Source: Harmothoe impar | Taxonomy: Eukaryota > Annelida > Polychaeta > Phyllodocida > Polynoidae | Assembly (NCBI GenBank): GCA_947462335.1 | Contig: OX381717.1 | Span: forward strand, 14,499,166 to 14,563,165 | Direction of reading: 5' to 3' | DNA length: 64,000 nt | Part shown: positions 12,962 through 46,421 of the stretch, piece by piece | How the letters are laid out: the number at the start of each line of letters is the position of its first letter | Numbering within the stretch: the stretch's first letter is position 1 | Position numbers and translations under genes: made by a program | Notes under the pieces: model-generated | What the model was told of the DNA's origin: nothing | Seen by the model: the letters and a program-made list of their open reading frames with translations, nothing else | Databases searched by the model: none

Positions 12962-12965
12962 GTAG

Positions 12966-13300
12966 CAGTGGCGCATCCAGGATTTTCCAGAGGGGGGGGG
13001 CCCAAACCCTGCCAACCATAGAGTGACTGTCTGTTCCCACGTGCATCGCAAGCTAAGCTCAGCGCAGTGGCCATACATGGGGGGTTGGGGGGCATGCTCC
13101 CCACCCCAAGAAAATACTGATGGTCTAGACTTCAAATGGTGCCTTCTCACACATTTTGGGACACAATATTTTAAGACTCAGGTCTGTGTCTATATGGAAT
13201 TGTCCCCTTCTCTCCCCCCTCTTTTCTCCTCTCTTCTTCTCTTTTGTTTTTTGGGGGGGGGGGGCAAGGCCCGTCGCCCCCCCCCCCCTGGATCCACCAA
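12966..13300. mobile_element. hAT-like MITE (tandem unit 1)
   Basis: Ends cagtggcgcatccag and ctggatccacca are inverted repeats. The flanks read gtgagtag on the left and atgagtag on the right, matching an imperfect 8-bp target duplication as made by hAT transposases. It lies 8 bases after RING exon 3, so it may have removed or displaced the following exon. The interior is G/C homopolymer-rich and non-coding. Confidence 0.65.
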
Positions 13301-13302
13301 TG

Positions 13303-13777
13303 AGTAGCCTACTTCAAAGCTCCAATTGAGCAATCAGATCAAAAAAAGGACAATGCTGTTTAGCTTCAATTAAACATCGCCCTCATCAAAAACAGAGCAT
13401 AATTGATAGAATCCATTATATTAACCCCTGATCGCGTACTTGATATTCCAGCGTTGTGATATTTTTTAGGGCAGTTGAGTTGGGTAATCTAGGACTACTA
13501 CTCAGAACATGCACAGGTATTGTGAAAGAAAGCCTTCAAGGGCCATCCATGTGTAGACCTAAATACATTTATTAGCAGGCATTAGTTGGATGTAATAGGC
13601 CCGATCTCTTATGATGACACATGGTTCAATTGATCTATAATTAGTTTCATCAGGACCATTGATAGAATCCATCATGAAAATATAATGGTTTATTTCTTTC
13701 AACCCCTGATCCTGTATTTGATCTATCAGCCCTGAGGTTAGGTTTGATGCTGTAGTAATGACGTCCAGACTCCTGAA
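13303..13777. other. Non-coding stretch between MITE and LINE fragment
   Basis: No gene seen. Parts may be the 5' portion of the decayed LINE that becomes recognisable downstream. The stretch is repeated at 19839-20315. Confidence 0.4.
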
Positions 13778-14954
13778 GCCACATGCACGGTTTGTCGTAC
13801 GTGTCGACACGAGGGCACACCGTCTTAGGATTGCCAAGACATATAACTTTTATCATTAACCTAGTGTGAAGGACATCCACTTTCCCTGATACATGGAAAA
13901 TAGCCACTGTTACCCCTCTGCCCAAATGTGGTAATCCCTCAGATGTGAACAACCTAAGGCCAATCTCTATATTACCTCTACCTTCCAAAATTGTTGAAAA
14001 AAATCCTGCATAAACAAATAATGAATCATTTAATAAAAAATAATATTCTTTCTGAAAATCAAGATGGTTTTAGGCCCGGACGTTCAACATTAAACAGCTT
14101 AATCAAATTTACTGACAATATTTATAAAGCCTCAAATAAAGATATATAGTTACAACTGCCATCTTTTTAGACTTCAGAAAAGCACTCAATACAATAAACG
14201 ATTTAATTTTAATAAACAAATTAGGAAAAATAGGCTACAGACAATCTTCCAGAAATTTAATAGAAAATTACTTAACAAACAGAGTCCAGGCCACCAAAGC
14301 TAATGGGATAATATCTGATACACTCAAGATCCCCTGTGGGGTACCCCAAGGATCAGTTCTTGGCCCCTTGTTATTTATTATATATATATTAATGACCTTG
14401 GTTTCCCCTTAAAAAATATGTGTGGCAATATGTATTGTCAACATTATGCAGATGACACTGTGCTTTACTACCCCAATAATAATCTATCTCCAAATGTGGA
14501 AAATACTATAAATTCAGACCTGGGAGTGGTAAATACATGGTGCAAAGCAAATAAGTTGTCATTAAATGCAAAGAAAACCAAGGTCATGTAAATTGGGACA
14601 GTTGCCAATATCAAGACCATGCCAAAGGCACATACATATAGATATCTTGATATTACTATAGATAGCAATTTAGACTTTAAAGCACATACAAAGGGAGTCA
14701 CAAGAAATGTCAATCACAAAGTCAGGCTGCTCAGAAGGGTAAGAAGAAAGATGGCTGAGAAAACAAGTGCAAAAGTCCTCACTTCTTTGATACTTCCAGC
14801 AATTGATTATGGAGATGTTCTATATTGTGTTTCCGTGGAAAATTTACAATATGCTTTTAATAGAGGCCTAAAAACTACCTATAATGAGGATGAATTTCAT
14901 GTAGATGTACAAAAAGTGTGGTGTAAATACATTGGAGGTCAGAAGGAAAAGTAG
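13778..14954 (+). pseudogene. Decayed CR1/L2/Jockey-type reverse transcriptase (unit 1)
   Basis: Across several frames the plus strand shows ordered RT blocks: TWKIATVTPLPKCG and LRPISILPL near 13890-13980, DGFRPGRSTL near 14065, CGVPQGSVLGPLLF near 14335, YADDTVLYY near 14448, and the ITIDSNLDFKAH ... LPAIDYGDVLY segment at 14640-14830. YADD is the polymerase catalytic motif. Stops and frameshifts separate the blocks, so no functional protein is possible. No endonuclease domain is visible upstream. Confidence 0.85.
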
Positions 14955-16001
14955 AAAGAGACAGGTTCCAGAGGTGGAATAAAAAAAGGTTCAAGGACAT
15001 TAAACCGCCCAGAGAACAGAAATTGAGTCTGGTCTCAATGTTAATGGTACAGGTACTCCGCCCGTTCCCTCTATTTTTTCCTCATCCACATTATTAATTA
15101 TATGTTTTAATTTCCCGAATTTTTGCTCTCATGTGAACCCTGTCATCTGTTCACATATAATTGGAATAACACCTCCAAAATTGGCAATTACATCAGCTTA
15201 GGGCTAATAACATCAGCCTTCTTTTATATATTGAAGATTAATTATTATTTGATCATTTTGTATAATGTAACAAGGTAATATAAGCTTTTTATGTCTTCTT
15301 CCATATACATCTTGGATGAGGACCTACCGTCACTTTGCCCAAGCACTGTTGCGGCTCCATAATAGAAGTATAATAATTCTATATGAATCCATATGAAATA
15401 TTATATGCATTGTTCAGAATATTTTACAAAACCCCCAAGGTAATTTTGTATCTCTAATATGAATATCACCTCTATTAGGATATGCGCATAAATTGCCAGG
15501 CCGTGTGTAATGCAAGTAAAATAAAAGAATTAACAACAACAACAACATTCTGCAACTGCTTTCATATAGCAGCCTGGTAAATTGAAATAGTGACTAACAT
15601 AAAACCTCGCGTATAAGCCTAACTCGCGTATAAGCCGCACCTAGACTTTAGGCCAATGCTATAAGCTACAATGGAAGTCTGATTATGGTGGCTTTGATAC
15701 TGTACTATAATGAAGTGGCTAAAACCCCGACTCTGGGCAGATGCTTCAATCTGCACCAGCAATCCGACTTGCGGACTAGCCGCTGCTTATACACAAGGTT
15801 TTACAGTAGCCTTTATAACATGGCTACATTCAAGGTACAGTGCATACTTAGGGATCGATACAGTTTTACCATGGAACAACCAAAAGATCATTCACACAGC
15901 CATGAACCAGGTGACAGCTAACCAGGAGTCCCTTGTCAGTGCTTGACACAGACCCGTAGTGCTATTTAGTATACACCAACAGCGATTTTGCCACACTGTG
16001 G
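14955..16001. other. LINE 3' tail and unassigned sequence to the tandem junction
   Basis: Immediately after the RT fragment the text resembles a LINE 3' end. A similar but diverged stretch (ccagaggt...ggttcaagga) is seen at 23670-23705. The remainder, including tcgcgtataagcc repeats at 15607-15640, holds no supported gene. Confidence 0.4.
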
Positions 16002-19000
16002 TGTCCCTGCTGTAACAAGGACACTCCTGTACCTGATGGTGTCCAGGGGCTCCAAGTGGACTTCAGAACCAACTCCCTGCTGCAGACTCTGTGCCAAGGC
16101 CACAACACTGGGGAGGTGGGAGAGTGTGATGCAGTAGTAGGGCCAGCAGCAGCAGAAGCAGAAGGGGCAGGGGCAGAAGCAGAAGCAGCTGAAGCAGCAG
16201 AAGGGGCAGGGGCAGAAGCAGCAGCAGAAGCAGGGGCAGAAGCAGCAGAAGAAGCAGAGGCAGAAGAGTCAGGGGCAGAAGCAGCAGAGGCAGGGGCAGA
16301 AGCAGCAGAAGCGGCAGAGGCAGGGGCAGAAGGGGCAGGGGCAGAAGCAGAATCAGCAGCAGAGGCAGAAGAGTCAGGGGCAGAGGCAGCAGAAGAAGCA
16401 GAGGCAGAAGAGTCAGGGGCAGAAGCAGCAGAGGCAGGGGCAGAAGCAGCAGAAGCAGGAGAGGCAGGGGCAGAAGCAGCAGAGGCAGGGGCAGAAGCAG
16501 CAGAGGCAGGGGCAGAAGCAGCAGAAGCAGGAGAGGCAGGGGCAGAAGCAGCAGAGGCAGGGGCAGAAGCAGTAGAGGCAGGGGCAGAAGCAGGAGAGGC
16601 AGGGGCAGAAGCAGCAGAGGCAGGGGCAGAAGCAGTAGAGGCAGGGGCAGAAGCAGGAGAGGCAGGGGCAGAAGCAGGAGAGGCAGGGGCAGAAGCAGCA
16701 GAGGCAGGGGCAGAAGCAGCAGAAGCAGGAGAGGCAGGGGCAGAAGCAGCAGAGGCAGGGGCAGAAGCAGTAGAGGCAGGGGCAGAAGCAGGAGAGGCAG
16801 GGGCAGAAGCAGCAGAGGCAGGGGCAGAAGCAGCAGAGGCAGGGGCAGAAGCAGCAGAAGCAGTAGAGGCAGGGGCAGAAGCAGGAGAGGCAGGGGCAGA
16901 AGCAGCAGAGGCAGGGGCAGAAGCAGTAGAGGCAGGGGCAGAAGCAGGAGAGGCAGGGGCAGAAGCAGCAGAGGCAGGGGCAGAAGCAGCAGAGGCAGGG
17001 GCAGAAGCAGCAGAGGCAGGGGCAGAAGCAGCAGAGGCAGGGGCAGAAGCAGCAGAGGCAGGGGCAGAAGCAGCAGAAGCAGGAGAGGCAGGGGCAGAAG
17101 CAGGAGAGGCAGGGGCAGAAGCAGCAGAGGCAGGGGCAGAAGCAGGAGAGGCAGGGGCAGAAGCAGCAGAGGCAGGGGCAGAAGCAGTAGAGGCAGGGGC
17201 AGAAGCAGCAGAGGCAGGGGCAGAAGCAGCAGAAGCAGGAGAGGCAGGGGCAGAAGCAGCAGAGGCAGGGGCAGAAGCAGTAGAGGCAGGGGCAGAAGCA
17301 GGAGAGGCAGGGGCAGAAGCAGCAGAGGCAGGGGCAGAAGCAGTAGAGGCAGGAGAGGCAGAATCAGTATCAGCAGCAGAGGCAGAAGAGTCAGGGGCAG
17401 AGGCAGAGGCAGAAGAGTCAGGGGCAGAAGCAGCAGAGGCAGAAGAGTCAGGGGCAGAAACAGCAGAGGCAGGGGCAGAAGCAGTAGAGGCAGGGGCAGA
17501 AGCAGTAGAGGCAGGGGCAGAAGCAGCAGAGGCAGGGGCAGAAGCAGTAGAGGTAGGGGCAGAAGCAGGAGAGGCAGGGGCAGAAGCAGGAGAGGCAGGG
17601 GCAGAAGCAGTAGAGGCAGGGGCAGAAGCAGCAGAAGCAGGAGAGGCAGGGGCAGAAGCAGCAGAGGCAGGGGCAGAAGCAGTAGAGGCAGGGGCAGAAG
17701 CAGGAGAGGCAGGGGCAGAAGCAGGAGAGGCAGGGGCAGAAGCAGCAGAGGCAGGGGCAGAAGCAGGAGAGGCAGGGGCAGAAGCAGCAGAGGCAGGGGC
17801 AGAAGCAGCAGAAGCAGGAGAGGCAGGGGCAGAAGCAGGAGAGGCAGGGGCAGAAGCAGCAGAGGCAGGGGCAGAAGCAGGAGAGGCAGGGGCAGAAGCA
17901 GGAGAGGCAGGGGCAGAAGCAGCAGAGGCAGGGGCAGAAGCAGTAGAGGCAGGGGCAGAAGCAGCAGAGGCAGGGGCAGAAGCAGCAGAAGCAGGAGAGG
18001 CAGGGGCAGAAGCAGCAGAGGCAGGGGCAGAAGCAGTAGAGGCAGGGGCAGAAGCAGGAGAGGCAGGGGCAGAAGCAGCAGAGGCAGGGGCAGAAGCAGC
18101 AGAGGCAGGGGCAGAAGCAGTAGAGGCAGGAGAGGCAGAATCAGTATCAGCAGCAGAGGCAGAAGAGTCAGGGGCAGAGGCAGAGGCAGAAGAGTCAGGG
18201 GCAGAAGCAGCAGAGGCAGAAGAGTCAGGGGCAGAAACAGCAGAGGCAGGGGCAGAAGCAGTAGAGGCAGAAGGAGCAGGGGACGAAGCAGCAGAAGCAG
18301 AAGAGGCAGAAGAAGCAGGAGAAGCAGCAGAAGCAGAAGCAGAACTGTGAGTAAATATAGTGTACATACCTAGCAAAACAGGGCCGACCATATATAAAAA
18401 TCCAATTTGAAAAGAAAATTTGGACATTTTGTGGCTACTTTACAGTTCACCTGAAGTTCTGCAAGTTTATGCGAGTGGGCCCGGAGTCAATTTCTTGATA
18501 CTTCTTAGACTAAAGTTTAAAAAGAAAATCAAAAAGACCATGTAACCTGAAGGACACCATTTTGGCCTGAGAAATGACAAATTGTTACGCTTTATGGGAG
18601 AAGCTGAGTTGAGGTTGAGTTTTGACTTTATTGGAATCAAGTTATCTTAGACATTACAGAGGTTTTTCAAGAAATGCCAAGATGGTACTAAATATTCTAA
18701 TTGAAACATATTATGATTAGATCAACAGTCTTTCAGTCAGTGGTAAGCAATGATACTAATAGTCTTAATTTACTCTCATCAATGCAGTATCTAAACAGCC
18801 TGAGTTGACACTGTGAAGTCTGCAGGTCGCATACAGTTATATAAAACAGGCGTTCTAAGGGTCGTAATAAAGTGATAATTTATAACAACAGAGCATGGTG
18901 AATTTTTAATTCCAAAATCTTAATTGTTTGAGTCTCCCCCTCTAGAGGAGATCTAAAAAGGCAGCATTTTGATAAAAACCCTGCTGTTGATCAAATGACT

Positions 19001-19502
19001 TGTCCAGAAACTAGATAATAGGGCTTTCACATTGTGTATCATATTGAAGTATAACTTTAATTCTAGATGATATTTTGTTAGATTGGACTGTGGTGAGACA
19101 GAGCGGGCTGCCTGGCCGTCCCTGGGACAGTCAGGTAAGTGTGTATTGGCTGAATGTTTGGCTTGATTGAGCTGGTAATAAAGTGGCCAATTGGAGATTA
19201 TTTCAGGCAGGTCATCTCTGTGGTGACTCAAACCCATATCTGTTATATCATGACTTGACTATTATTCATACAGGAACTCACATACATTAGCTGACCAAAA
19301 CAATATGGAAAACAGTATATATCTTGATTGTATGTATAGTTAATGAATCTGAATAAAAACTATTAAAACAAACAAACAAACACTGAACACTCCCTATTGT
19401 GTTTTTCCAGGAATTGATGCCAGACAGCTGACCCTCCATGCTCACTGTGGAAGGAATGTAACAATAAGTGCAGATAGAATGACAGCACGGCTACTTGAGT
19501 GA
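16002..19502 (+). pseudogene. Headless RING gene copy 2 (exon 1 truncated)
   Basis: The copy starts in the middle of the RING at the last zinc-ligand pair (CPCCNKDTPVP), so six of eight ligands, the start codon and the promoter are missing. The rest is preserved: the E/A/G repeat to the GTGAGT donor at 18347, exon 2 at 19082-19134 and exon 3 at 19411-19498. These could still serve as alternative downstream exons for transcripts from copy 1. As an independent gene it is dead unless a new promoter was acquired. Confidence 0.85.
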
Positions 19503-19506
19503 GTAG

Positions 19507-19838
19507 CAGTGGCGCATCCAGGATTTTCCAGAGGGGGGGGCCCAAACCCTGCCAACCATAGAGTGACTGTCTGTTCCCACGTGCATCGCAAGCTAAGCTC
19601 AGCGCAGTGGCCATACATGGGGGGTTGGGGGGCATGCTCCCCACCCCAAGAAAATACTGATGGTCTAGACTTCAAATGGTGCCTTCTCACACATTTTGGG
19701 ACACAATATTTTAAGACTCAGGTCTGTGTCTATATGGAATTGTCCCCTTCTCTCCCCCCTCTTTTCTCCTCTCTTCTTCTCTTTTGTTTTTGGGGGGGGG
19801 GGGCAAGGCCCGTCGCCCCCCCCCCCTGGATCCACCAA
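19507..19838. mobile_element. hAT-like MITE (tandem unit 2)
   Basis: Duplicate of the element at 12966-13300, differing by poly-G and poly-C run lengths only. Confidence 0.65.
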
Positions 19839-20315
19839 TGAGTAGCCTACTTCAAAGCTCCAATTGAGCAATCAGATCAAAAAAAGGACAATGCTGTTTA
19901 GCTTCAATTAAACATCGCCCTCATCAAAAACAGAGCATAATTGATAGAATCCATTATATTAACCCCTGATCGCGTACTTGATATTCCAGCGTTGTGATAT
20001 TTTTTAGGGCAGTTGAGTTGGGTAATCTAGGACTACTACTCAGAACATGCACAGGTATTGTGAAAGAAAGCCTTCAAGGGCCATCCATGTGTAGACCTAA
20101 ATACATTTATTAGCAGGCATTAGTTGGATGTAATAGGCCCGATCTCTTATGATGACACATGGTTCAATTGATCTATAATTAGTTTCATCAGGACCATTGA
20201 TAGAATCCATCATGAAAATATAATGGTTTATTTCTTTCAACCCCTGATCCTGTATTTGATCTATCAGCCCTGAGGTTAGGTTTGATGCTGTAGTAATGAC
20301 GTCCAGACTCCTGAA

Positions 20316-21492
20316 GCCACATGCACGGTTTGTCGTACGTGTCGACACGAGGGCACACCGTCTTAGGATTGCCAAGACATATAACTTTTATCATTAACCT
20401 AGTGTGAAGGACATCCACTTTCCCTGATACATGGAAAATAGCCACTGTTACCCCTCTGCCCAAATGTGGTAATCCCTCAGATGTGAACAACCTAAGGCCA
20501 ATCTCTATATTACCTCTACCTTCCAAAATTGTTGAAAAAAATCCTGCATAAACAAATAATGAATCATTTAATAAAAAATAATATTCTTTCTGAAAATCAA
20601 GATGGTTTTAGGCCCGGACGTTCAACATTAAACAGCTTAATCAAATTTACTGACAATATTTATAAAGCCTCAAATAAAGATATATAGTTACAACTGCCAT
20701 CTTTTTAGACTTCAGAAAAGCACTCAATACAATAAACGATTTAATTTTAATAAACAAATTAGGAAAAATAGGCTACAGACAATCTTCCAGAAATTTAATA
20801 GAAAATTACTTAACAAACAGAGTCCAGGCCACCAAAGCTAATGGGATAATATCTGATACACTCAAGATCCCCTGTGGGGTACCCCAAGGATCAGTTCTTG
20901 GCCCCTTGTTATTTATTATATATATATTAATGACCTTGGTTTCCCCTTAAAAAATATGTGTGGCAATATGTATTGTCAACATTATGCAGATGACACTGTG
21001 CTTTACTACCCCAATAATAATCTATCTCCAAATGTGGAAAATACTATAAATTCAGACCTGGGAGTGGTAAATACATGGTGCAAAGCAAATAAGTTGTCAT
21101 TAAATGCAAAGAAAACCAAGGTCATGTAAATTGGGACAGTTGCCAATATCAAGACCATGCCAAAGGCACATACATATAGATATCTTGATATTACTATAGA
21201 TAGCAATTTAGACTTTAAAGCACATACAAAGGGAGTCACAAGAAATGTCAATCACAAAGTCAGGCTGCTCAGAAGGGTAAGAAGAAAGATGGCTGAGAAA
21301 ACAAGTGCAAAAGTCCTCACTTCTTTGATACTTCCAGCAATTGATTATGGAGATGTTCTATATTGTGTTTCCGTGGAAAATTTACAATATGCTTTTAATA
21401 GAGGCCTAAAAACTACCTATAATGAGGATGAATTTCATGTAGATGTACAAAAAGTGTGGTGTAAATACATTGGAGGTCAGAAGGAAAAGTAG
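20316..21492 (+). pseudogene. Decayed LINE reverse transcriptase (unit 2)
   Basis: Copy of 13778-14954 made by the tandem duplication. It has the same blocks and the same stops, including GVPQGSVLGPLL and YADDTVLYY. That the two copies share every break shows decay preceded duplication. Confidence 0.85.
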
Positions 21493-22904
21493 AAAGAGAC
21501 AGGTTCCAGAGGTGGAATAAAAAAAGGTTCAAGGACATTAAACCGCCCAGAGAACAGAAATTGAGTCTGGTCTCAATGTTAATGGTACAGGTACTCCGCC
21601 CGTTCCCTCTATTTTTTCCTCATCCACATTATTAATTATATGTTTTAATTTCCCGAATTTTTGCTCTCATGTGAACCCTGTCATCTGTTCACATATAATT
21701 GGAATAACACCTCCAAAATTGGCAATTACATCAGCTTAGGGCTAATAACATCAGCCTTCTTTTATATATTGAAGATTAATTATTATTTGATCATTTTGTA
21801 TAATGTAACAAGGTAATATAAGCTTTTTATGTCTTCTTCCATATACATCTTGGATGAGGACCTACCGTCACTTTGCCCAAGCACTGTTGCGGCTCCATAA
21901 TAGAAGTATAATAATTCTATATGAATCCATATGAAATATTATATGCATTGTTCAGAATATTTTACAAAACCCCCAAGGTAATTTTGTATCTCTAATATGA
22001 ATATCACCTCTATTAGGATATGCGCATAAATTGCCAGGCCGTGTGTAATGCAAGTAAAATAAAAGAATTAACAACAACAACAACATTCTGCAACTGCTTT
22101 CATATAGCAGCCTGGTAAATTGAAATAGTGACTAACATAAAACCTCGCGTATAAGCCTAACTCGCGTATAAGCCGCACCTAGACTTTAGGCCAATGCTAT
22201 AAGCTACAATGGAAGTCTGATTATGGTGGCTTTGATACTGTACTATAATGAAGTGGCTAAAACCCCGACTCTGGGCAGATGCTTCAATCTGCACCAGCAA
22301 TCCGACTTGCGGACTAGCCGCTGCTTATACACAAGGTTTTACAGTAGCCTTTATAACATGGCTACATTCAAGGTACAGTGCATACTTAGGGATCGATACA
22401 GTTTTACCATGGAACAACCAAAAGATCATTCACACAGCCATGAACCAGGTGACAGCTAACCAGGAGTCCCTTGTCAGTGCTTGACACAGACCCGTAGTGC
22501 TATTTAGTATACACCAACAGCGATTTTGCCACACTGTAGTGTTAAACTGAGATGCATGAGTCAATGTGCATACAGCTTAAATTAAAACGAGTTTGTGATC
22601 ATTCTTACAAATCAGTGGAATAAACTAATGATATAATGTATCAGATGGATATCCCTTCTAATGGCCTGTGGATCACCTGGTTACTCTTGTGTTGCATTTA
22701 GGAGATAATAGGAGTTAACCTCCCCCCCCCCACCATGCACTATATGTCCCAAGGTGTGTGTGTAAGTGCCCAGCCCCCCCCCCCCCCCCCACCAGCCCAG
22801 TAGCTTTCACACTCAGCAGCAGTGTAGTGTCATGCTATAGCGCTACGTTATATGTAGAGACAGTGTACGTGCCAATGCTGCAGTGGACCATACCTGTGAA
22901 CACA

Positions 22905-25398: not shown

Positions 25399-25406
25399 TA
25401 TAAATA
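25399..25406 (+). promoter_or_regulatory. TATA box of the peptide-precursor gene
   Basis: TATAAATA stands about 30 bases before a plausible initiator (ctcatca near 25427) and 85 bases before the only ATG followed by a signal peptide. The spacing is canonical for RNA polymerase II. Confidence 0.7.
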
Positions 25407-25490: not shown

Positions 25491-28400
25491 ATGAAGTACC
25501 TGCTTTTTGCCCTCTGCCTGCTTGCTGTCACACTCCAGTGTCAGGGATGGGCTATCGTAAGTTCATATTCATATAGACTATAATATGTCAAAAAGGAGGA
25601 CAATTTGAGGATACTATCTTATGAGGATAATATTTCATGAAGTGTACCAGATATTATCAGAACATGAGTATTACAATATGAAAATCATCTTCAACTCAAT
25701 AGTGCAATAGGCTAAATTATATTTCATGTGGTTCTTTACTTTAAACCAACAGTAAATTCTACTGCCCGTGTGATAGGATACTGTAATACATACCTTAAAA
25801 CTAAAATAGATTCTACTGCTCTGCTACATTTACTAGTTAGTCATCGGATAGTTTATGCTTGTGTAATCACAGATAGGAGCACTAAGTTCATATTCATATA
25901 GACTATAATATGTCTACTAGGATATCTATTTCGGATATCTATTAAGTGTTCTGACAGAGTATCCTTCAGCAATCACAGATGAGAGCACTGTCACAACCTC
26001 TAAAGTATTAGGCTTCAAGCCATTTGCATAACACACTTATACTAAGCCAGAGAAGAAATTTGATCTTGAGGAAGCTATATTCTCTTTCATTTGTTGATAT
26101 TAACTGTCATGGTTTTGTAATGGTACTAAATTGACATGTAAAAGCATAAAAACTCTGTTTCCATTGATAAGCAATATGATAACCAAGCATTACCCTATAG
26201 AGATAATATTTACATTACAGAAGAAGAATGCTGCCAAGATGAAATGTCCTGGTTGGAGCTGCAAGAAAGTAAGTACTCTAATGTTTATCTTTGTTCTTTT
26301 TCTTTATTGATCAAAATTAACATGTATGGTGATTGATGTTCAACTATGTCAGATGAATACATTAGGGTTAATGGTCCTACATTGACATGTGCTATAGATA
26401 CAATGAAAACTTATTCTGTTTCAATTGATGAGAATATTTCACATTAAACAGACTGCCCCACAATTTGGTTATGGCACATATCAAGCAGTAAGTACTCTAA
26501 TGTCTATCTTTTATCTCTTTCGTTATTGATGGAAGTTAAGGGTTCCATATATGCTTCAGTAGTCATGGATGGGAGCACTCAGATTTTCGGTATAGTATCT
26601 GGGTCTAAGACATTTGCTTAACACATTTATACCTAGTCATAGAAGAAATACGGTGATTTGATGAGTGGACATAACAGATGGCTGCCTTCTGATATTCATC
26701 TGTGTTTTACCCCTTATTTATCTAAGTCAACATTTATGGTGATTGTTGTTTAATTGAGTCGGATGAATAGTACAGGTTGATTTACATTTCATATGGTATG
26801 CTTTTTACCTGTCACAACCTCTATAGTATTCGGGTTCAAGCCATTTGCTTAACACACTTATACCTATCCAAAGAAGAGATTTGACCTCAATGAAGCACAT
26901 TAAGTTTCATTGGTTAGTTATAACTGTCATGGTTTTGCAATGGTACTACATTGACATGTGCTATAGATACAATAAAAACTAATTCTGTTTCCATTGATAA
27001 ACAATATGATAACCCACCCTTTCCCTATATAGAGAGAATATTTCACATTACAGCCTAAGAAGACACAGACTGCCTCACAATATGGTATTACAGCCAACCA
27101 AGTAGTAAGTACTCTGATGTCTATCTTTTATCTTTTTCTTTATTGATGGACATTAAGGGTTTTATGCTTCAGTAGTCATGGATTGGAGCACTGTAATTAC
27201 TGCTATAGTATCTGGGCTTAAGACCTTACTTAACACACTTATACCTAGGTGGTGAAAACCCAGACATTTTCATGAAAGTGGACCCTCGTAAGGGCGACTT
27301 TTCCTTGATGAGTGGACCCTTGTTTGGGCGATTTGGTAGAAAAAGTACCCTTCCAAGCTGCACACATGTGTATACAAAATATACTGTGCCCCCCTCCCCG
27401 GGGTTATTCAAATTTCATGTGGTCCTTTTTTTTACTGTAAACCAACAGTATATTCTATCACCAATGTAATATGATACTGTAGGGGTTGGATTCCCCATGC
27501 CTGGGTGGTAAACCAGCAAGCGGGTATCATTTGGGTAATCCGGCTCCCCTCCATACTATACCGATTCAGTAACTTATGGCATGGTCAATTTCTCAGACGG
27601 GGATGTAGCTCAGTGGTGGAGCACTTGGCTTCGGAGTCAGGAGGTTGTGGGTTTGACTCCTGCTTTCTCCAGATGATTTTTCCGCCACCGTTACAATACT
27701 GTGATATATACTGTAGAACCATAGTAGATTCTGCTGCTCAGCTACATTTACGTTTGTGGCACTACTTAGGGAGAGGAGAAATAAGTTGATTTGAGAAGAG
27801 AGTGTCATCATCTTGATAAATCAGATTGAGTTTCATTGGTTGACTTGGATTGTAATAGTATTGCATTGACTAGTGCTATATATACAATGAAGAAATAATT
27901 TAGTTTCAATTCATAATTCAGTTTCAGTTTCAATTGATAAGCAATATGATAACTCACACTTAATCTATAGAGTGAATATTTATATTACACAGAAGAAAGT
28001 GAAGGATGCAATTGCCAGTGCAGTAAGTACCCTGATGTTTATTTTTAAATGAATTCACAAAATATGAAGCTGCGTAGCCCTAAGCACTGAGCCTCATATT
28101 TGTAAAAAGGTGAATAACCAGCCCTCATATTTTGCAAAACCTCGGTATTTCACAAATACTTCACTTCCAGTCTGGCTGTTTCTATCAATTTTAGAATAAA
28201 GTAAACTGCTCAGCTACATTTTCTTTTGTGGCAATACTTGGTATGCTTTAGTAGTCACAGATGGCAGCACTGTCAGTATCCATATAGTATCTGGGTTCAT
28301 GACTAATTCAGCTATAGATACAATAAATACTCTGTTTCAATTGATAACCAATATGATAACCAAGCATTACCCTACAGAGATAATATTTACATTACAGAGG

Positions 28401-31400
28401 AAGAATGCTGCCAAGTGGAAATGTTCTGGTTGGAGCTGCAAGAAAGTAAGTACTCTGATGTTAATCTTTGTTCTTCTTCTTTATTGATCAAAATTAACAT
28501 GTATGGTGATTGATGTTTAACTATGTCAGATGAATAGATTAGGGTTAATGGTCCTACATTGACATGTGCTATAGATACAATGACAACTTATTCTGTTTCA
28601 ATAGATGAGAATATTTCACATTAAACAGACTGCCCCACAATTTGGTTATGGCACCTATCAAGCAGTAAGTACTCTAATGTCTATCTGTTATCTCTTTCGT
28701 TATTGATGGAAGTTAAGGGTTCTATGCTTCAGTAGTCATAGATGGGAGCACTCAAATTTTCGGTATAGTATCTGGGTCTAAGACATTTTCTTAACACATT
28801 TATACCTAGTCATAGAAGAAATACGGTGATTTGATGAGTGGACATTACAGATGGCTGCCTTCTGATATTTATCTGTGTTTTTCCCCTTATTTATCTAAGT
28901 CAACATTTATGGTGATTGTTGTTTAATTGAGTCGGATGAATAGTACAGGTTGATTTATATTTCATATGGTATTCTTTTTACCCGTCCCAACCTCTATAGT
29001 ATTCGGGTTCAAGCCATTTGCTTAACACACTTATACCTATCCAAAGAAGAGATTTGACCTCAATGAAGCACATTAAGTTTCATTGGTTAGTTTTAACTGT
29101 CATGGTTTTGCAATGGTACTACATTGACATGTGCTATAGATACAATAAAAACTAATTCTGTTTCCATTGATAAACAATATGATAACCCACCCTTTCCCTA
29201 TATAGAGAGAATATTTCACATTACAGCCTAAGAAGACACAGACTGCCTCACAATATGGTATTACAGCCAACCAAGTAGTAAGTACTCTGATGTCTATCTT
29301 TTATCTCTTTCTTTATTGATGGACATTAAGGATTTTATGCTTCAGTAGTCATGGATTGGAGCACTGTAATTACTGCTATAGTATCTGGGCTTAAGACCTT
29401 ACTTAACACACTTATACCTAGGTGGTGAAAACCCAGACATTTTCATGAAAGTGGACCCTCGTAAGGGCGACTTTCCCTTGATGAGTGGACCCTTGTTTGG
29501 GCGATTTGGTAGAAAAAGTACCCTTCCAAGCTGCACACATGTGTATACAAAATATATTGTGCCCCCCTCCCCGGGGTTATTCAAATTTCATGTGGTCCTT
29601 TTTTTTTTTACTGTAAGCCAACAGTATATTCTATCACCAATGTAATATTATACTATAGGGGTGGGATTTCCCATGCCTGGGTGGTAAACCAGCAAGGGGG
29701 TATCATTTGGGTAATCCGGCTCCCCTCCATACTATACCGATTCAGTAACTTACGGCATGGTCAATTTCTCAGACGGGGATGTAGCTCAGTGGTAGAGCAC
29801 TTGGCTTCGGAGTCAGGAGGTCGTGGGTTTGACTCCTGCTTTCTCCAGATGATTTTTCCGCCACCGTTACAATACTGTGATATATACTGTAGAACCATAG
29901 TAGATCCTGCTGCTCAGCTACATTTACGTTTGTGGCACTACTTAGGGAGAGGAGAAATAAGTTGATTTGAGAAGAGAGTGTCATCATCTTGATAAATCAG
30001 ATTGAGTTTCATTGGTTGACTTGGATTGTAATAGTATTGCATTGACTAGTGCTATATATACAATGAAGAAATAATTTAGTCTCAATTCATAATTCAGTTT
30101 CAGTTTCAATTGATAAGCAATATGATAACTCACACTTAATCTATAGAGTGAATATTTATATTACACAGAAGAAAGTGAAGGATGCAATTGCCAGTGCAGT
30201 AAGTACCCTGATGTTTATTTTTAAATGAATTCACAAAATATGAAGCTGCGTAGCCCTAAGCACTGAGCCTCATATTTGTAAAAAGGTGAATAACCAGCCC
30301 TCATATTTTGCAAAACCTCGGTATTTCACAAATACTTCACTTCCAGTCTGGCTGTTTCTATCAATTTTAGAATAAAGTAAACTGCTCAGCTACATTTTCT
30401 TTTGTGGCAATACTTGGTATGCTTTAGTAGTCACAGATGGCAGCACTGTCAGTATCCATATAGTATCTGGGTTCATGACTAATTCAGCTATAGATACAAT
30501 AAATACTCTGTTTCAATTGATAACCAATATGATAACCAAGCATTACCCTATAGAGATAATATTTACATTACAGAGGAAGAATGCTGCCAAGACGAAATGT
30601 ACTGGTTGGTTCTGCAAGAAAGTAAGTACTCTGATGTTAATCTTTGTTCTTTTTCTTTATTGATCAAAATTAACATGTATGGTGATTGATGTTTAACTAT
30701 GTCAGATGAATAGATTAGGGTTAATGGTCCTACATTGACATGTGCTATAGATCCAATGAAAACTTATTCTGTTTCAATTGATGAGAATATTTCACATTAA
30801 ACAGACTGCCCCACAATTTGGTTATGGCACCTATCAAGCAGTAAGTACTCTAATGTCTATCTTTTATCTCTTTCGTTATTGATGGAAGTTAAGGGTTCTA
30901 TGCTTCAATAGTCATGGATGGGAGCACTCAGATTTTAGGTATAGTATCTGGGTGTAAGACATTTGCTTAACACATTTATACCTAGTCATAGAAGAAATAT
31001 GGTGATTTGATGAGTGGACATTACAGATGGCTGCCTTCTGATATTTATCTGTGTTTTTCCCCTTATTTATCTAAGTCAACATTTATGGTGATTGTTGTTT
31101 AATTGAGTCGGATGAATAGTACAGGTTGATTTATATTTCATATGGTATTCTTTTTACCTGTCCCAACCTCTATAGTATTCGGGTTCAAGCCATTTGCTTA
31201 ACACACTTATACCTATCCAAAGAAGAGATTTGACCTCAATGAAGCACATTAAGTTTCATTGGTTAGTTTTAACTGTCATGGTTTTGCAATGGTACTACAT
31301 TGACATGTGCTATAGATACAATAAAAACTAATTCTGTTTCCATTGATAAACAATATGATAACCCACCCTTTCCCTATATAGAGAGAATATTTCACATTAC

Positions 31401-32940
31401 AGCCTAAGAAGACACAGACTGCCTCACAATATGGTATTACAGCCAACCAAGTAGTAAGTACTCTGATGTCTATCTTTTATCTCTTTCTTTATTGATGGAC
31501 ATTAAGGATTTTATGCTTCAGTAGTCATGGATTGGAGCACTGTAATTACTGCTATAGTATCTGGGTTTAAGACCTTACTTAACACACTTATACCTAGGTG
31601 GTGAAAACCCAGACATTTTCATGAAAGTGGACCCTTGTAAGGGCGACTTTTCCTTGATGAGTGGACCCTTGTTTGGGCGATTTGGTAGAAAAAGTACCCT
31701 TCCAAGCTGCACACATGTATATACAAAATATACTGTGCCCCCCTCCCCGGGGTTATTCAAATTTCATGTGGTCCTTTTTTTTTTTACTGAAAACCAACAG
31801 TATATTCTATCACCAATGTAATATGATACTGTAGGGGTGGGATTTCCCATGCCTGGGTGGTAAACCAGCAAGGGGGTATCATTTGGGTAATCCGGCTCCC
31901 CTCCGTACTATACCGATTCAGTAACTTACGGCATGGTCAATTTCTCAGACGGGGATGTAGCTCAGTGGTAGAGCACTTGGCTTCAGAGTCAGGAGGTCGT
32001 GGGTTTGACTCCTGCTTTCTCCAGATGATTTTTCCGCCACCGTTACAATACTGTGATATATACTGTAGAACCATAGTAGATCCTGCTGCTCAGCTACATT
32101 TACGTTTGTGGCACTACTTAGGGAGAGGAGAAATAAGTTGATTTGAGAAGAGAGTGTCATCATCTTGATAAATCAGATTGAGTTTCATTGGTTGACTTGG
32201 ATTGTAATAGTATTGCATTGACTAGTGCTATATATACAATGAAGAAATAATTTAGTTTCAATTCATAATTCAGTTTCAGTTTCAATTGATAAGCAATATG
32301 ATAACTCACACTTAATCTATAGAGTGAATATTTATATTACACAGAAGAAAGTGAAGGATGCAATTGCCAGTGCAGTAAGTACCCTGATGTTTATTTTTAA
32401 ATGAATTCACAAAATATGAAGCTGCGTAGCCCTAAGCACTGAGCCTCATATTTGTAAAAAGGTGAATAACCAGCCCTCATATTTTGCAAAACCTCGGTAT
32501 TTCACAAATACTTCACTTCCAGTCTGGCTGTTTCTATCAATTTTAGAATAAAGTAAACTGCTCAGCTACATTTTCTTTTGTGGCAATACTTGGTATGCTT
32601 TAGTAGTCACAGATGGCAGCACTGTCAGTATCCATATAGTATCTGGGTTCATGACTAATTCAGCTATAGATACAATAAATACTCTGTTTCAATTGATAAC
32701 CAATATGATAACCAAGCATTACCCTATAGAGATAATATTTACATTACAGAGGAAGAATGCTGCCAAGAGGAAATGTACTGGTTGGTTCTGCAAGAAAGTA
32801 AGTACTTTGATGTTAATCTTTGTTCTTTTTCTTTATTGATCAAAATAAACATGTATGGTGATTGATGTTTAACTATGTCAGCTGAATAGATTAGGGTTAT
32901 TCATATTTCATGTGGTCCGGTTTTTACATTACAGAATTAG
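25491..32940 (+). CDS. Secreted multi-peptide precursor built of tandem mini-exons
   Basis: Not a family I recognise. Exon 1 (25491-25556) encodes signal peptide MKYLLFALCLLAVTLQCQG plus WAI. Then 13 mini-exons follow in four types. Type a (48 nt) is at 26221-26268, 28398-28445, 30574-30621 and 32750-32797. Type b (36 nt) is at 26452-26487, 28629-28664 and 30805-30840. Type c (51 nt) is at 27054-27104, 29227-29277 and 31403-31453. Type d (30 nt) is at 27993-28022, 30169-30198 and 32345-32374. The last exon (32935-32940) is AAT TAG. Every donor is GTAAGT, every acceptor ends CAG and every intron is phase 0, giving 204 residues. Type a reads (K/R)KNAAKxKCxGWxCKK; b TAPQFGYGTYQA; c PKKTQTASQYGITANQV; d KKVKDAIASA. 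KK or RK pairs fall between the peptides, as in prohormone processing. It could be an antimicrobial or a neuropeptide precursor; the sequence does not decide. Confidence 0.8.
26150..28325 (+). repeat. Peptide-gene tandem unit 1
   Basis: About 2.18 kb holding one set of a, b, c and d mini-exons, a tRNA-SINE between c and d, and a long intron before the next unit. It is slightly more diverged from units 2 and 3 than they are from each other. Boundaries are approximate because intron 1 also contains older, degraded unit-like sequence. Confidence 0.8.
27599..27671 (+). repeat. tRNA-derived SINE head, unit 1
   Basis: A 73-base tRNA-like segment has a good A box (tagctcagtgg), a near-consensus B box (ggtttgactcc) and a seven-base anticodon loop CTTCGGA that would place TCG at 34-36. 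The anticodon stem pairs poorly and the acceptor arm is weak, so it is a SINE head rather than a working tRNA. The flanking text ccatactataccgattcag also occurs beside the SINE at 63868-64000. Confidence 0.7.
28326..30501 (+). repeat. Peptide-gene tandem unit 2
   Basis: The distance between equivalent exons of units 2 and 3 is exactly 2176 bases throughout, and introns differ at only a few scattered positions. Unit 2 encodes the W-K-C-S-G-W-S-C variant of the a peptide. Confidence 0.85.
29775..29847 (+). repeat. tRNA-derived SINE head, unit 2
   Basis: Same insertion carried along by unit duplication. It has A box tagctcagtgg and the same CTTCGGA loop. Confidence 0.7.
30502..32677 (+). repeat. 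Peptide-gene tandem unit 3
   Basis: Third full unit, with the T-K-C-T-G-W-F-C variant. A fourth, partial unit (about 32678-32900) contains only exon a before the sequence jumps to the terminal exon. Confidence 0.85.
31951..32023 (+). repeat. tRNA-derived SINE head, unit 3 (loop changed to TCA)
   Basis: As in units 1 and 2, but the loop reads CTTCAGA, so the nominal anticodon becomes TCA. With the poor stem this is most simply drift in a dead SINE. Confidence 0.65.
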
Positions 32941-41208: not shown

Positions 41209-42117
41209 AGTAGTATAGTATGTATCGGAACGGGACTATGGTTAAGTGCTGTTTATTACTCAATCGACATGCAGCCAATCAGAGGCCTCCATTTGGTCAC
41301 GTGACCGGAAGTGACCTACTTAGGGGATTAGTGGTGACGTCACGTGACCTAGTTAGCCAATCAGAGGCCGCCATTTGGTCACGTGACCGTAAGTGACGTC
41401 ATATGACCTACTTATGGACCGGAAGTGACGTCATATGACCTACTTAGGGGACCGGAAGTGACGTCATATGACCTAATTTAGGATCACGTGACCGGAAGTG
41501 ACCTGATGAGTCACGTGACTGGAAGTGACGTCACATGACCTAATGGCCAACCGGAAGTGAGTGACCTCATTGAGGATCACGTGACCGGAAGTGACCTGAT
41601 TGATCACGTGACCGGAAGAAGAAGTGACGTCACGCGACTTAATGAAGAGATGAGCGTCTTAAAGGGGTCACGCGCTTTAAAATGTGATATATATTTTTTT
41701 TGGAGGAGGAGGAGGAGGGGGAGGAGGAGGAGGAGGAGGAGGAGGAGGAGGAGGAGGAGGAGGAGGAGGAGGAGGCGAGTCTCTTATTTTTTTTGGTAAA
41801 CCAATAAAAAACACAACAATATAAGTTTGTTTTTTCATTTTTATTTTTTTACGAGCGACTGGAAGTGACTTATTGAACTAGGTAGAAGCGTTCTTTAGAG
41901 TGTATAAGGAGGGGAGGGGAGGGGAGGGGAGGGGAGGGGAGGGGAGGGGAGGGGAGGGGGTAGGGGGGGAGGGGGGGAGGGGGGCCCCTTTAAGATGCAT
42001 GGGGAGGGGGGCGCTTTTAGGATGCATGGGGCGGGTGGGGGGGGAGGGAGGGGAGGGGAGGGGAGGGGGGAGGGGGGCACTCTAGGGGGGCACTCTAAGG
42101 GGCACTCTAAGGGGCGC
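41209..42117 (+). repeat. Left terminal inverted repeat
   Basis: Pairs with 51414-52293. In order it contains a CCAAT/YY1 segment, about ten E-box/ETS/CRE modules, a (GGA)n tract at 41702-41774, a (GGGGA)n tract at about 41909-41960 and G-run stretches up to 42080. The arms are nearly identical, apart from repeat lengths and a handful of substitutions, suggesting recent insertion. Confidence 0.85.
41270..41640. promoter_or_regulatory. Array of host transcription-factor motifs in the left TIR
   Basis: Repeated modules read TCACGTGACCGGAAGTGACG or close variants. CACGTG is a USF/MITF-type E-box, CCGGAAGT an ETS core and TGACGTCA a full CRE. Two agCCAATCAGAGG sites (NF-Y type) stand next to GCCGCCATTTGG-like YY1 motifs. 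The mirror array is at 51870-52235. I infer that this drives element genes, but only the motifs are seen. Confidence 0.6.
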
Positions 42118-45100
42118 TTATAATACAAGTAGCCCACGCCGTCTTTCTCTATGGTGTAGGTGACCATTTTGTTTCGCACCACTTTGAAATTTCTATTTAC
42201 CGCAAGGAGAGTTTTTCGTTGGCGAAGAACATCCAAGAAGTCGTCTGGTTCTTTAGGGTTTTGTTTCTTCTGTACACCTTTTGCACTCCATTTTTTGGAA
42301 TTTCTTTCACCGGTGCCGCTGACTCGATCGTAGCAAATGTAAGTCTTAGGGTTGAGACTTAGGATCCCGTCACCTTCCCACTCCGCTTTCATAAGCCCCG
42401 AAGTTCTCAGATCGTGAAGGTAACGTCTCTCACAACATCCGCCGGGCGGCGGACACCATTCTCGCACTCTTTCCGTTTTTGTCTTCGCGAAAAGCTCTAA
42501 GTGATCGTTGCACACCGCTGTCGGAATCCACTTTCGTTTCTCTCTGAAGTACGTCTCTCTCAGGCGAGGTTTGACTAGGTCATCCAACGTGTCACCGCTG
42601 AGAGCCATGTAAAGACTGTCGTTGTCCATTTGACAAAGGGCATAATCGCGCCGATCGACGAATCTATTCAAGAAGTCGTATGTGAACTCTAACATTTTCA
42701 ACTTCGCGTACTGGTATACCATGAACCCTATTTGAATAGGGAGGTTGTTCTTGACTGTTTTCGGTTGTAGTTCGACTTCAAACAGATCAGAACTCAACTC
42801 GGACGCCTTTTTGAAGCGCCACGAATTGGCCAATAGTTTGAACTTCCGACTGTCAGTGTATCTCACCGCCGTGTGTTTTTCTTTGTTGCAGATTGTTTTA
42901 CCGTACGTGGCGTTTCCCATTAACTTGTAACAGTCTGACAGAATTTTCTCGTTCTCGTTCACGTCGCCACGTCTTCGCGCCGCCGTTACTTCGTCCGCGA
43001 AACCGGCAAAGGAGCGTTTAGGTAGGTATTCTACGACCAGCTGTACTTTGGTGACTATCAAACCGTGCTCTAAATACCACTTGAGAAGCGGCGTTCCCAA
43101 GAGAATATTTTTTCCGTGGTAACTCCCTATCAGACATCTCTGAGGCGTGTTCAACAGCTTTTCTTCCTGCGCAAAGTCTGACATGTGAGGTCCTATGTCT
43201 GATTTTGAAACAGACACGTTCTTGAAAACGGGGGTCATTTCTTCGAAGTAGTCTCGTAGGTGAGGCGGCGTAGTGATGTCCACTTGAACTAAACCGAACA
43301 TTTTCCCGTCTTTCACAGCGGAAAGGATGTCGCTCTCGCTCATTGCGTTTCGAGACACTTTCAAAGCGTCAACCTTCCAGCGTTGTTGGGAGGCCTTAAC
43401 CCGCTCATCTCGACGCTTCATCTCTCTCCATTCGCACTCCCACACGACGACCAGCTTGTGACCTAGCGCTTTCAAGTAAGCGCTTACTCTAGTCGTTCTG
43501 TCGTGTCTCTCCTCCCTCAGTGAAGCGCACTGATATAAGTGCGACGGTATGCACTCGTGAGCGTGGAACCAACACCCGTGAAACTGGAAAACCGTATTAG
43601 AGGCCGCGTGAAACCCGTCGACGCGAATTCTTCGACAGCCTACAACCATCTCGCCGCCGTTCAAAGCGTGGCGCAGTTTCACGTCGCAGTCGTGCTCTAC
43701 GAAGCGTAACCACTCCAAAGCGCTGTGAGAGATTCTTTGCCTAATTTCGGGCTTGAACTCAGTCTCAGGTTGTCTCACCGCGTAATAGCCCGTGCAGTGC
43801 ACTTCGCTCATGCAGTGCAAGTACAGAGAGTTAGCGTCTAGTCCTAGGATGTGTTGGCACGGTCTCGCTTCTTCGCCGTACTTGTGCTCCCTTATCCGCG
43901 TGGTGCCCTTCTCGTGAAATCTATGGAAGATGATGGAAGGACCGCCGACTAGATTTTCTGTGATCAGAGCGTGGAGGACGGCGTTGAACTGGGGGAACGT
44001 TGTGAACGCGTCTTCTAGGTTTTGGAAGAGGAACCGTAAAGTCAAACCGGCGAGAGAAACCCCGTCTTTCAACATGTCAATGCCGCGATCTTTGAGAAAT
44101 TTAGCATGATTTTTCAGAGCTTCTATGAAAGGTTTGACGTCTTTGTTGTTGTAGTGGATCAAGTAATCTCCCATAGTTTGCATCTTCTCGTCGGACCAAA
44201 CTTTCTGACATGCGGCGTAGTCGGATTCGGACATTTTGACGCCCGTCAGTTTGCTGTCAAAAGCCGATCTCGGTGGCAGTGTTCTGTTTGCCAGTTTCCT
44301 GGTAGACGTCATCCATTCGTAAGGAAAGTGACCTTTCTCTTCGTTTCTGGTGAAAGCTCGCAAATAGTTCGCGTAGTTGTAACCGGGTGCCAAATAGTTG
44401 ACTACGTCCAAGAAAACCGTGTGCTGTGTGTAAACCGCCAAGTATTGATTGCTTCTCTTTATGACGCTGAATTCTTGGTTTCTTCGGTCTCCGGAGGCAA
44501 AGAACGAGTGAAGGCATATTTTGATCAGGTTCAAGTCGTAACGCCCCGAGTTGAAGCCCATGACTGGAGCTTGACGGATGTATCTCAGAAGCCGCTTCTT
44601 CAGTTGAACTAACGGGTGTCTGGTCTGAGCCGCAGCGACGCCGCCTGGAGAAGGGGTGAATGTCGCCTCCTCCAGCAGGAGAGCTTCACCTATCGCCGCA
44701 TCTAACTTCGCTAACGTCGGTCGGTAAAGTTCTAGCACAGCTTCCCCGATGACTTTGGCGTTCTCGTTTATGTGATTTAAAACTCGGTCCAACAAGGGGT
44801 CGGAATCTGCGTTGGATTCTCTGACGAAGCAGACTGGCCCCTCGCACCCGGGAAAGTCGGATGCGACGCTAGCCGACAAAGGGACGTGATCCCACAGCAG
44901 GGACACGTGTTCCGTCGACGGTTCTCTGCACGGTCTGAAGAAAGCCTCGAAATCGAAGGTGATCTTGTAAGGGTAGATTCCGGAATGTCCGTCGGGAGGA
45001 AAAATGGAGAAGTCTGCTAGCGCTTCGAAAATCTTTCTCGAATTTTGGTAGATGCCACCTACGTAGCGCAACTTGACTTGTCGGCAAGAGGAAAGCTGGT

Positions 45101-46193
45101 TCCTGTGTCTCTTCAGCAAGAACTCGGTGGTGAACGCCGCCTTACACTTGCAACATTCGTATATGCCCGCGTACTCGTTGAAGTCCGTGACCAGAGAGAC
45201 GTGCAAACCGCCTTTCGCCGTCAGGTGTAGGTTGACTTTACCTCGGGCGGCCAGAGTTCTGGAAGGCGGTCTGATCAGAGTAACGCGTCTTCTCAACTTC
45301 CGCCCCGGCACCTGACGCGACGCGGTGTAAACCGCTATTTGTACGTCAAACAAGTTCTCTAACGCGGGTAAGTTGCGGATGTTCAAACCCGGAAAGGATT
45401 CAGGTGTGGCAGCGGGACAGAACTGACGTAACAAATCTGAAGCGCGCTTGCTGGTGTTGTATAAGTGAAAGGAAATGCAGCGGAAGACGCAGAGGTTGTC
45501 CTTGTTGGGAAAATCTAACACGCCGCTTCTCTTTCCAACTCAACCGGCCTGAGTGATCCTACCGCCTATGGGAAATTACCCCGGTCCCATGTAAACGCAA
45601 ATGTTCAAATTGGTAGGAAAAAGAACGTGCCACTTGGTGTCAGCGTCGCAAAGTTTCCATACTTCCTCGCAAGCGACGGTGTTTTCCATGTTTGAGAGGA
45701 GCTCTTCCAAAGTTTCTGAATTAGTTATAGTAGGGAGCGGTTGTATGAGAGTTGCGTTGTTCTGGGAGGCTTGAAAGTAGCGCAGTTTGCTCTTGTCTTC
45801 TCTGTGTTGTAAGAGTAAGCCTACCGAGAAACCCACTTTGTATCTGAATCTTTGTGTCAAGTGAATGCGACGCATAGTATCTACAGCGTCACTCAACTCG
45901 CCGGTTGGTAGCCTGAAGTTTGTTACACTCATGCGAGGCCCGTGCATCCTGATGCCCGTTTGTATTGCAGGCCAATTCGCCGTGAACGTTTCCTCACCGT
46001 TCGGTACAGCACATATGCGCGGAGGGATGGTCACCCCGTCCAGAGATTAGCGTCGACAGGCGATCTTTCGGCAATCGCCTTCGCCGCATAGAGGGCAAAA
46101 CTTAGGTATTACTCTACATTTTTCTACGTGTCTCTCGTGATTGTACGGTCTTTTAAAAATTTTGAAACACTTTTCGCAGACGTACTGCGTCAT
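42100..46193 (-). pseudogene. Protein-primed-type family B DNA polymerase, three in-frame stops
   Basis: One frame runs from ATG at 46191-46193 to about 42105, broken only by TAA at 46047-46049, TAA at 45576-45578 and TGA at 45540-45542. The first 48 codons are a zinc-finger-like start (CEKCFKIF ... HERHVEKC). The middle piece (about 46034-45579) has no ATG. The long piece (from 45521) keeps the core. In that numbering: exonuclease motifs FDFEAFF (about 189), GFNSGRYDLNL (322) and YNNKD (457); polymerase A LDANSLYL (561), B KLMGNATYGKT (866) and C MDNDSLY (965). A second zinc finger is near 121-146, and a DGF...FHGCWFHAH segment lies at 635-655. It would copy the element genome from a terminal protein. 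The frame reads on into TIR G/C repeats to 41895, giving a P/S-rich tail. Catalytic residues look intact; the stops argue against a full-length product. Confidence 0.85.
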
Positions 46194-46199
46194 GGTTTT

Positions 46200-46345: not shown

Positions 46346-46421
46346 CTGTGTATCCGTCTGTCTGTCTCATACAGCGTACGTCAAACACTGTGTGTGTGCG
46401 CGCGTGAGCGTTGAGCGTCTC

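Follow-up and report, generated by a model that had tools for sequence, protein, structure and literature searches.

Structure of the gene

The window analyzed here is a 64,000-nucleotide stretch of the genome of the polynoid scale worm Harmothoe impar (contig OX381717.1, positions 14,499,166 to 14,563,165), and its forward strand carries, between positions 25399 and 32990, a complete-looking gene with exons in the order leader-abcd-abcd-abcd-a-end. By sequence comparison this gene appears to be one member of a large leader-sharing family with hypervariable exons, and we consider it very probable that the spliced family is real. The explanation that we favor, as a fairly probable one, is a leader-defined superfamily of secreted cationic proteins that would act as defence or gland effectors and would have an architecture like that of micro-exon genes (MEGs); the effector role taken by itself may as easily fail as hold. 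A preliminary description of this DNA had proposed a TATA box, a signal-peptide exon, 13 mini-exons of 30-51 nt, a two-codon end exon and an AATAAA signal, and all of these are present:

25399-25406, + strand: TATA box TATAAATA (direct reading)
25491-25556, + strand: exon 1, leader or signal peptide; coding sequence MKYLLFALCLLAVTLQCQGWAI; peptide MKYLLFALCLLAVTLQCQG/WAI, cleavage point judged by eye
26221-26268, + strand: mini-exon a1, KKNAAKMKCPGWSCKK
26452-26487, + strand: mini-exon b1, TAPQFGYGTYQA
27054-27104, + strand: mini-exon c1, PKKTQTASQYGITANQV
27993-28022, + strand: mini-exon d1, KKVKDAIASA
28398-28445, + strand: mini-exon a2, RKNAAKWKCSGWSCKK
28629-28664, + strand: mini-exon b2
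29227-29277, + strand: mini-exon c2
30169-30198, + strand: mini-exon d2
30574-30621, + strand: mini-exon a3, RKNAAKTKCTGWFCKK
30805-30840, + strand: mini-exon b3
31403-31453, + strand: mini-exon c3
32345-32374, + strand: mini-exon d3
32750-32797, + strand: mini-exon a4, RKNAAKRKCTGWFCKK
32935-32940, + strand: end exon AATTAG (Asn-stop); this stretch recurs in paralogs L009-L023 on the same contig (C15)
32985-32990, + strand: AATAAA polyadenylation signal (direct reading); AATTAAA in many paralogs

Mini-exons of 30-51 nt make up 13 of the 15 exons (a, 48 nt, four copies; b, 36 nt, c, 51 nt, and d, 30 nt, three copies each), and all exons are in phase 0 with lengths that are multiples of three. 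As had been described, the introns begin with GTAAGT and are in phase 0; all 14 run GTAAGT...AG, and the 14 GTAAGT sites on the + strand between 25400 and 33200 are identical with the 14 donors. Several exons have alternative in-frame AGs upstream or downstream (giving, for example, an a exon of 66 nt, a c exon of 72 nt or a d exon of 81 nt); for each mini-exon the AG in the shared ACAG context was picked.

The gene consists of three tandem units of ~2176 bp, each coding 55 residues, plus a fourth exon a, and 300-nt blocks are 95-97% identical between the full units. The 13 mini-exons should therefore be counted as four independent ones, and it is the paralogs (below) that provide an independent test. 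A single unit contains four GTAAGT sites, each with an open exon of 30-51 nt and a length divisible by three, a number reached in 0 of 1000 dinucleotide shuffles of one unit (mean 0.10). In the remaining 55.5 kb of the window, comparable candidates numbered 7 from 16 GTAAGT sites on the + strand and 5 from 12 on the - strand.

Gene family in the genome

The genome as searched comprised 1,511,831,793 bases in 736 contigs, with the window on C15 (69,722,511 bases); contigs C6, C15 and C19 correspond to Harmothoe impar chromosomes 6, 14 and 16. Excerpts of the published genome note give 1,512,319,410 bp, 861 scaffolds and a mitochondrial genome of 15.37 kb (PMC10541532). Some short scaffolds are therefore missing from the sequence searched. 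The first kilobase of the window gene matches many genomic places, and copies of a 221-bp promoter-leader block number at least 40, spread over seven chromosome-scale contigs (17 on C15, 9 on C6, 6 on C19, 5 on C1, and 1 each on C2, C4 and C11). This count should be considered a lower bound (41 candidates, 40 scored). The TATA-like sequence, or one near it, was present in six aligned promoter copies.

With the window, 27 stretches were read, 20 being 10 kb and 6 being 4 kb long; many are recent duplicates. The leader and the end exon are common to the genes on C15, whose mini-exon types are related. In the C19 genes the leader reads MQYLPIALCLLATALHCQG, and their exons include 51-nt ones such as TQEMEAFVKKYAGHCMT; SKNMVTYIKKYCINGKD and RKKYMAAMMKPGRTRME exemplify the mini-exon types of loci on C6 and C1. 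The stretches read for L027 (C6) and L028 (C1) showed no leader, though leader copies occur on both chromosomes; L024 has a leader and no mini-exon by the motif rule given below. Among the six 4-kb loci, L035, L036 and L037 have a leader with mini-exons; L033 and L038 showed the leader without any mini-exon, and L034 no mini-exon that convinces.

Two loci are recorded separately. At L035 (C4:27871240-27875239), the leader is accompanied by true micro-exons, 18-21 nt long, for the peptides AKKARKQ, VKKAKKM and ARKSKM. L022 and L023 (C15, 14.03 and 32.47 Mb) lie 18 Mb apart and have identical first three mini-exons, the fourth differing by one residue, which may reflect a transposed copy or an assembly misplacement.

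Reading-frame constraint

Mini-exons were gathered by motif, using GTRAGT donors and a list of acceptors; other splice sites are missed by this rule, as with NVAKDAADIA of L012, L019 and L021. Taking the nearest consensus acceptor at 21 loci, the distance from acceptor to GTRAGT was divisible by three in 133 of 136 intervals. Distinct intervals of such length were open in the exon frame in 74 of 79 cases, versus 33 and 36 in the two alternative frames. Stops were found in 11 intervals (5 distinct), each being the last mini-exon found in its gene, where a stop costs little; one shared pattern points to few events. These 11 intervals were left out of the tallies of divergence, charge and basic pairs. 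Duplicated exons are not independent, yet the four window types and the unlike types of C19, C6 and C1 agree. It is on this evolutionary constraint on frame that we judge the mini-exons to be coding.

Divergence of exons and flanks

Within the window, identity is 84% over 82 bp between the upstream flanks of a and c (z 17.6) and 91% over 57 bp between the downstream flanks of b and c (z 18.3); for the flank upstream of b the likeness is weaker (z 4.0 to 7.1). Exon pairs among a, b, c and d are unlike, except for b-c (75%, z 5.2). Neutral simulations at 16% divergence gave exon scores as low as those observed in 72 of 2000 runs for b-c, in 6 for a-d and in none for the other four pairs (a-b, a-c, b-d and c-d); at 35% divergence, where this comparison is not decisive, those four pairs gave 49-109 of 2000 and a-d and b-c were uninformative. 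Window a exons have 6 variable columns of 48, versus 46 of 1814 in introns (p=0.0018).

The same was seen between paralogs. Identity was 79% for a-type exons versus 93-94% for their flanks, 71% versus 93-95% for the 30-nt type, 79% versus 92-94% for the 36-nt type (a class that includes shortened c exons), and 70% versus 81-82% for the 51-nt type of C19. The exon fell below both flanks in 141/153 a-type pairs, 295/325 30-nt pairs and 158/190 C19 pairs, and in 382/528 pairs when C19, C6 and C1 were pooled; identical modules were merged, and the pairs are not independent. The ratio of nonsynonymous divergence (pN) to near-flank divergence, with bootstrap ranges, was 3.4 (2.6-4.3) for a, 4.7 (3.5-6.2) for the 30-nt type and 1.7 (1.5-1.8) for C19. 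Relative to synonymous divergence (pS), pN/pS was 1.59 (1.15-2.54), 1.26 (1.08-1.49) and 1.21 (1.02-1.49), respectively. The 30-nt modules numbered 26 distinct in the identity comparison and 20 in pN/pS, where shorter flanks were compared, and L024, L027 and L028 fall outside the pN/pS classes. The leader exon (8 distinct) gave pN 0.031 and pS 0.036. Judged from these alignments, exon divergence appears accelerated under frame constraint, with the leader and intron flanks conserved; for the a type only, they at most suggest positive selection.

Predicted product and favored explanation

The spliced product has 204 residues, or 185 after likely cleavage at CQG/W, with an isoelectric point (pI) of 10.2 and 40 K+R versus 3 D+E, in keeping with the lysine-rich product described at the outset. 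Secretion had been proposed from the leader, and the leader is indeed hydrophobic, as judged from sequence, in the window gene and in its paralogs (leaders of 25 loci were compared). The C-x4-C loop reported for the a peptides also held up: among distinct open 48-nt a-type exons of C15 paralogs the second cysteine is kept in 14/14 and the first in 13/14, while surrounding residues vary. Summed mini-exon net charge was positive in 20 of 20 loci, ranging from +1 to +46 (exon lists are incomplete).

The preliminary description had recognized no family, and searches with the product agree. Pfam gave no accepted match, none of the best 25 of 28 weak matches reaching its cut-off and BRICHOS being absent among those 25; PDB gave no match up to E 5. 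In a set of 5.8 billion proteins, the full precursor returned 16 candidates, none at E 0.1, and a short query returned 3, none at E 1. This set probably lacks spliced eukaryotic models, because the neighboring open reading frame (ORF) with a RING finger and a long repeat was unmatched too (30 candidates). A degenerate exon-a pattern was unmatched in viral contigs, six peptide strings had no occurrence in the searched literature, and neither micro-exon genes in annelids nor polynoid peptides were among the literature matches listed.

From the observed gene structure, frame constraint, family size, cassette duplication and divergence pattern the following mechanism may be drawn, in which splicing in vivo, secretion, tissue and activity are predictions. 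In a single transcript, the conserved signal peptide would be followed by a series of symmetrical phase 0 mini-exons; the segment coded by each is short and in most cases basic, and some segments contain a C-x4-C loop. With all borders in phase 0, the frame stays intact when an intron-exon-intron cassette is duplicated, deleted, relocated or skipped. By such duplication the window gene grew to three 2.2-kb units and one a cassette, and coding segments diversify against a background of similar leaders, promoters and intron flanks. The product would leave the cell via a gland or epithelium and, either uncut or after some trimming, might act on the membranes or surfaces of microbes, prey or attackers; variable basic segments behind a constant leader would fit effectors that face changing targets. 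Jaw-associated glands of unknown content are described in several scale-worm families including Polynoidae, Harmothoe being unnamed in the excerpts of that report (PMC4280546).

Several results weigh against this explanation. The family includes short members of low net charge (L013, +1), and 3 of the 6 further leader loci (L033, L038 and L034) have no convincing mini-exon in the 4 kb read. The fall of exon identity below both flanks is weaker in the 36-nt type (70/120 pairs) and across all types of four C15 genes (276/465). Synonymous sites in exons also exceed flanks (2.1-fold for a, 3.7-fold for the 30-nt type, 1.4-fold for C19). Along minimum-spanning trees, nonsynonymous changes make up a share close to neutral (a, 0.89 versus 0.81 expected, p=0.038; 30-nt, 0.77 versus 0.77; C19, 0.85 versus 0.83, with close C19 pairs at 0.72, below neutral). 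Far flanks of the a type diverge more than near ones (0.116 versus 0.067), and flank conservation may partly be splicing constraint; the window a-exon excess shrinks beside adjacent flanks (10 of 150 columns variable, four copies). Since synonymous sites are elevated too and tree counts are near neutral, we claim only accelerated divergence.

Alternative explanations

The preliminary description had read the gene as a precursor cut at KK or RK borders. As a multi-peptide prohormone, it would be cleaved by convertases at basic pairs, freeing peptides of 8 to 14 residues, looped ones included, and expected forms would include NAAKxKCxGWxC and TAPQFGYGTYQAP with clipped ends. The window protein has four basic pairs per 55-residue unit, and its units do not differ in their b, c and d peptides. 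Across the family, a basic pair occurs in the first four residues of 32 of 77 distinct peptides versus 12.0 by shuffling (0 of 2000 shuffles reach 32), and somewhere in 50 of 77; the 77 peptides are related, and should not be treated as independent cases. Cutting at the proposed borders finds only partial support: pairs are enriched near exon starts, and yet 45 of 77 peptides have none there. Among 41 distinct C15 paralog exons of at least 27 nt, a pair stands at the first two residues in 13, at the end in 4 and anywhere in 18. Pairs near exon starts are mostly KK and RK, and the window protein has 11 KK, 4 RK, 1 KR and 0 RR; KK and RK are weaker convertase sites than KR or RR. No glycine precedes the pairs in the window protein, which is therefore without an amidation signal (direct reading). 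Copies of a prohormone peptide usually match one another, whereas exons within one gene differ from each other in many paralogs. A purine-rich splicing enhancer could also explain the pattern of pairs, the first 12 nt of mini-exons being 71% purine and the remainder 60%. On these grounds we consider the prohormone unlikely; given the enrichment near exon starts, partial dibasic processing may stay viable.

A secreted structural protein of mucus, tube or elytral matrix, with repeats cross-linkable through Lys, Gln and Tyr, would account for a window product that is repetitive, rich in K, A, T, Q and G, contains 9 Tyr and repeats b, c and d without change. Across paralogs, exons outpace introns in divergence, which is unusual for a structural repeat, and the peptides of C1, C6 and C19 are quite different; we therefore regard this reading as distinctly unlikely.

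It is highly unlikely, in our view, that the introns came first, as introner-like elements spread through one old exon of which the present exons are slices. The introns are mutually similar and most pairs among a, b, c and d exons are not, as such an origin would have it. Against it, no other intron resembles the downstream flank of the leader exon, at the donor end of intron 1 (the alignments listed start at position 165), which fits the copying of exon-plus-flank cassettes and not intron insertion. Exons b and c are recognizably homologous, exons of one type vary more from gene to gene than the flanks around them, and a search for a contiguous copy or retrocopy of the spliced protein gave no match in the genome, only two leader exons passing E 0.001.

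A non-coding tandem repeat or dead family, suggested by the transposon-like and duplicated surroundings and by the stop in the last mini-exon common to 11 C15 genes, is barely credible given the open frames, lengths divisible by three, donor use and conserved promoter, leader and end exon.

Comparison with known systems

Among the known systems closest to the favored superfamily of secreted cationic proteins are the MEGs of schistosomes and other flatworms. In the excerpts consulted, these have a signal peptide, most coding sequence in small symmetrical exons, long introns, a fast-evolving multigene family and gland-associated products (PMC10526429, PMC4350168); the introduction of a 2015 paper treats them as apparently restricted to platyhelminths (PMC4350168). 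The scale-worm gene agrees with this structural definition in its signal peptide, tiny symmetrical exons, multigene family and fast protein evolution, its secretion being predicted from sequence. It belongs, in contrast, to an annelid, for which excerpts of the genome note mention no parasitic habit (PMC10541532). Scale-worm exons of 18-57 nt, basic segments and visible cassette duplication are further differences, and no sequence link was found, MEG sequences not having been compared. The likeness is probably convergent.

Aphid bicycle genes, as excerpted, have many micro-exons, signal sequences in many cases and fast evolution, with structure outlasting sequence (PMC9168663); they share micro-exons, leader and fast evolution with the scale-worm genes and come from a different phylum. 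Their CYC tripeptide was absent from the 77 distinct family peptides. Conotoxins and three-finger toxins have rich cysteine frameworks. Excerpts on conotoxins and on viperid three-finger toxins (ASSET) describe introns that are alike and a mature coding exon that varies more (PMC3862624, PMC2474615). A conserved leader and introns with hypervariable mature exons are thus found in these leader-defined superfamilies and in the scale-worm family, but the toxin genes, as far as these excerpts go, have two or three exons, and the scale-worm genes many mini-exons, none with more than one Cys pair. Some annelid antimicrobial peptides are cationic with a Cys loop. Arenicin and nicomicin, from BRICHOS precursors, are described in the excerpts seen as small secreted polychaete antimicrobial peptides; such precursors yield one C-terminal peptide, whereas the scale-worm gene has repeated mini-exons.

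Tentatively, we suggest that scale worms evolved micro-exon diversification independently of flatworms and aphids: tens of leader-sharing genes, in which frame-neutral cassettes would be copied, shuffled and perhaps alternatively spliced and coding change accelerated, would yield variable secreted cationic effectors of venom or immunity. If the gene is transcribed as modeled, the MEG architecture would extend to an annelid, which would suggest that the demand for variable secreted effectors has been solved more than once by symmetrical mini-exon cassettes. Gene finders based on ORFs probably overlook such genes, and the secreted repertoires of marine invertebrates may for this reason be undercounted.

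Other elements in the window and assembly

The introns between c and d carry the head of what we read as a tRNA-like short interspersed nuclear element (SINE), a passenger outside the product:

27599-27671, + strand: tRNA-like SINE head
29775-29847, + strand: tRNA-like SINE head
31951-32023, + strand: tRNA-like SINE head

The anticodons that ARAGORN gives for these are abnormal, with four bases (tcgg/tcag). Intron 1 can be aligned with the sequence to either side of the SINE stretch but lacks the SINE itself, which suggests later insertion.

Positions 9459-16004 and 16000-22542 form a 6.5-kb tandem duplication of 99.9% identity, which carries the long Ala/Glu/Gly repeat of the RING-finger ORF and a reverse-transcriptase fragment; it may be very recent, or an assembly effect. 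An older segmental duplication in pieces (69-9904 versus 35594-61377, 88-96% identity) flanks the peptide gene on both sides. A large ORF at 41895-47546 scores above the cut-off of DNA_pol_B_2 (PF03175), next to an ORF that is weakly PC4-like, below cut-off, and the region looks like a Polinton-type element. An exon for a CRAL-TRIO N-terminal domain lies at 5291-5650 on the - strand, with a near-identical ORF at 56566-56808.

By our own reading, the COX1 on contig C736 (15,367 bases) agrees with mitochondrial code 5, in which AAA is read as Lys and AGR as Ser. The visible gene order on this contig, with genes also named by our own reading, is nad4L-nad4-...-nad1-nad3-nad2-cox1-cox2 on one strand, which is usual for annelids. 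A second COX1, flatworm-looking by our own reading, occurs at L030 (C466:6571-7902) on a 21-kb contig of this scale-worm assembly; its source may be a parasite, prey or a contaminant.

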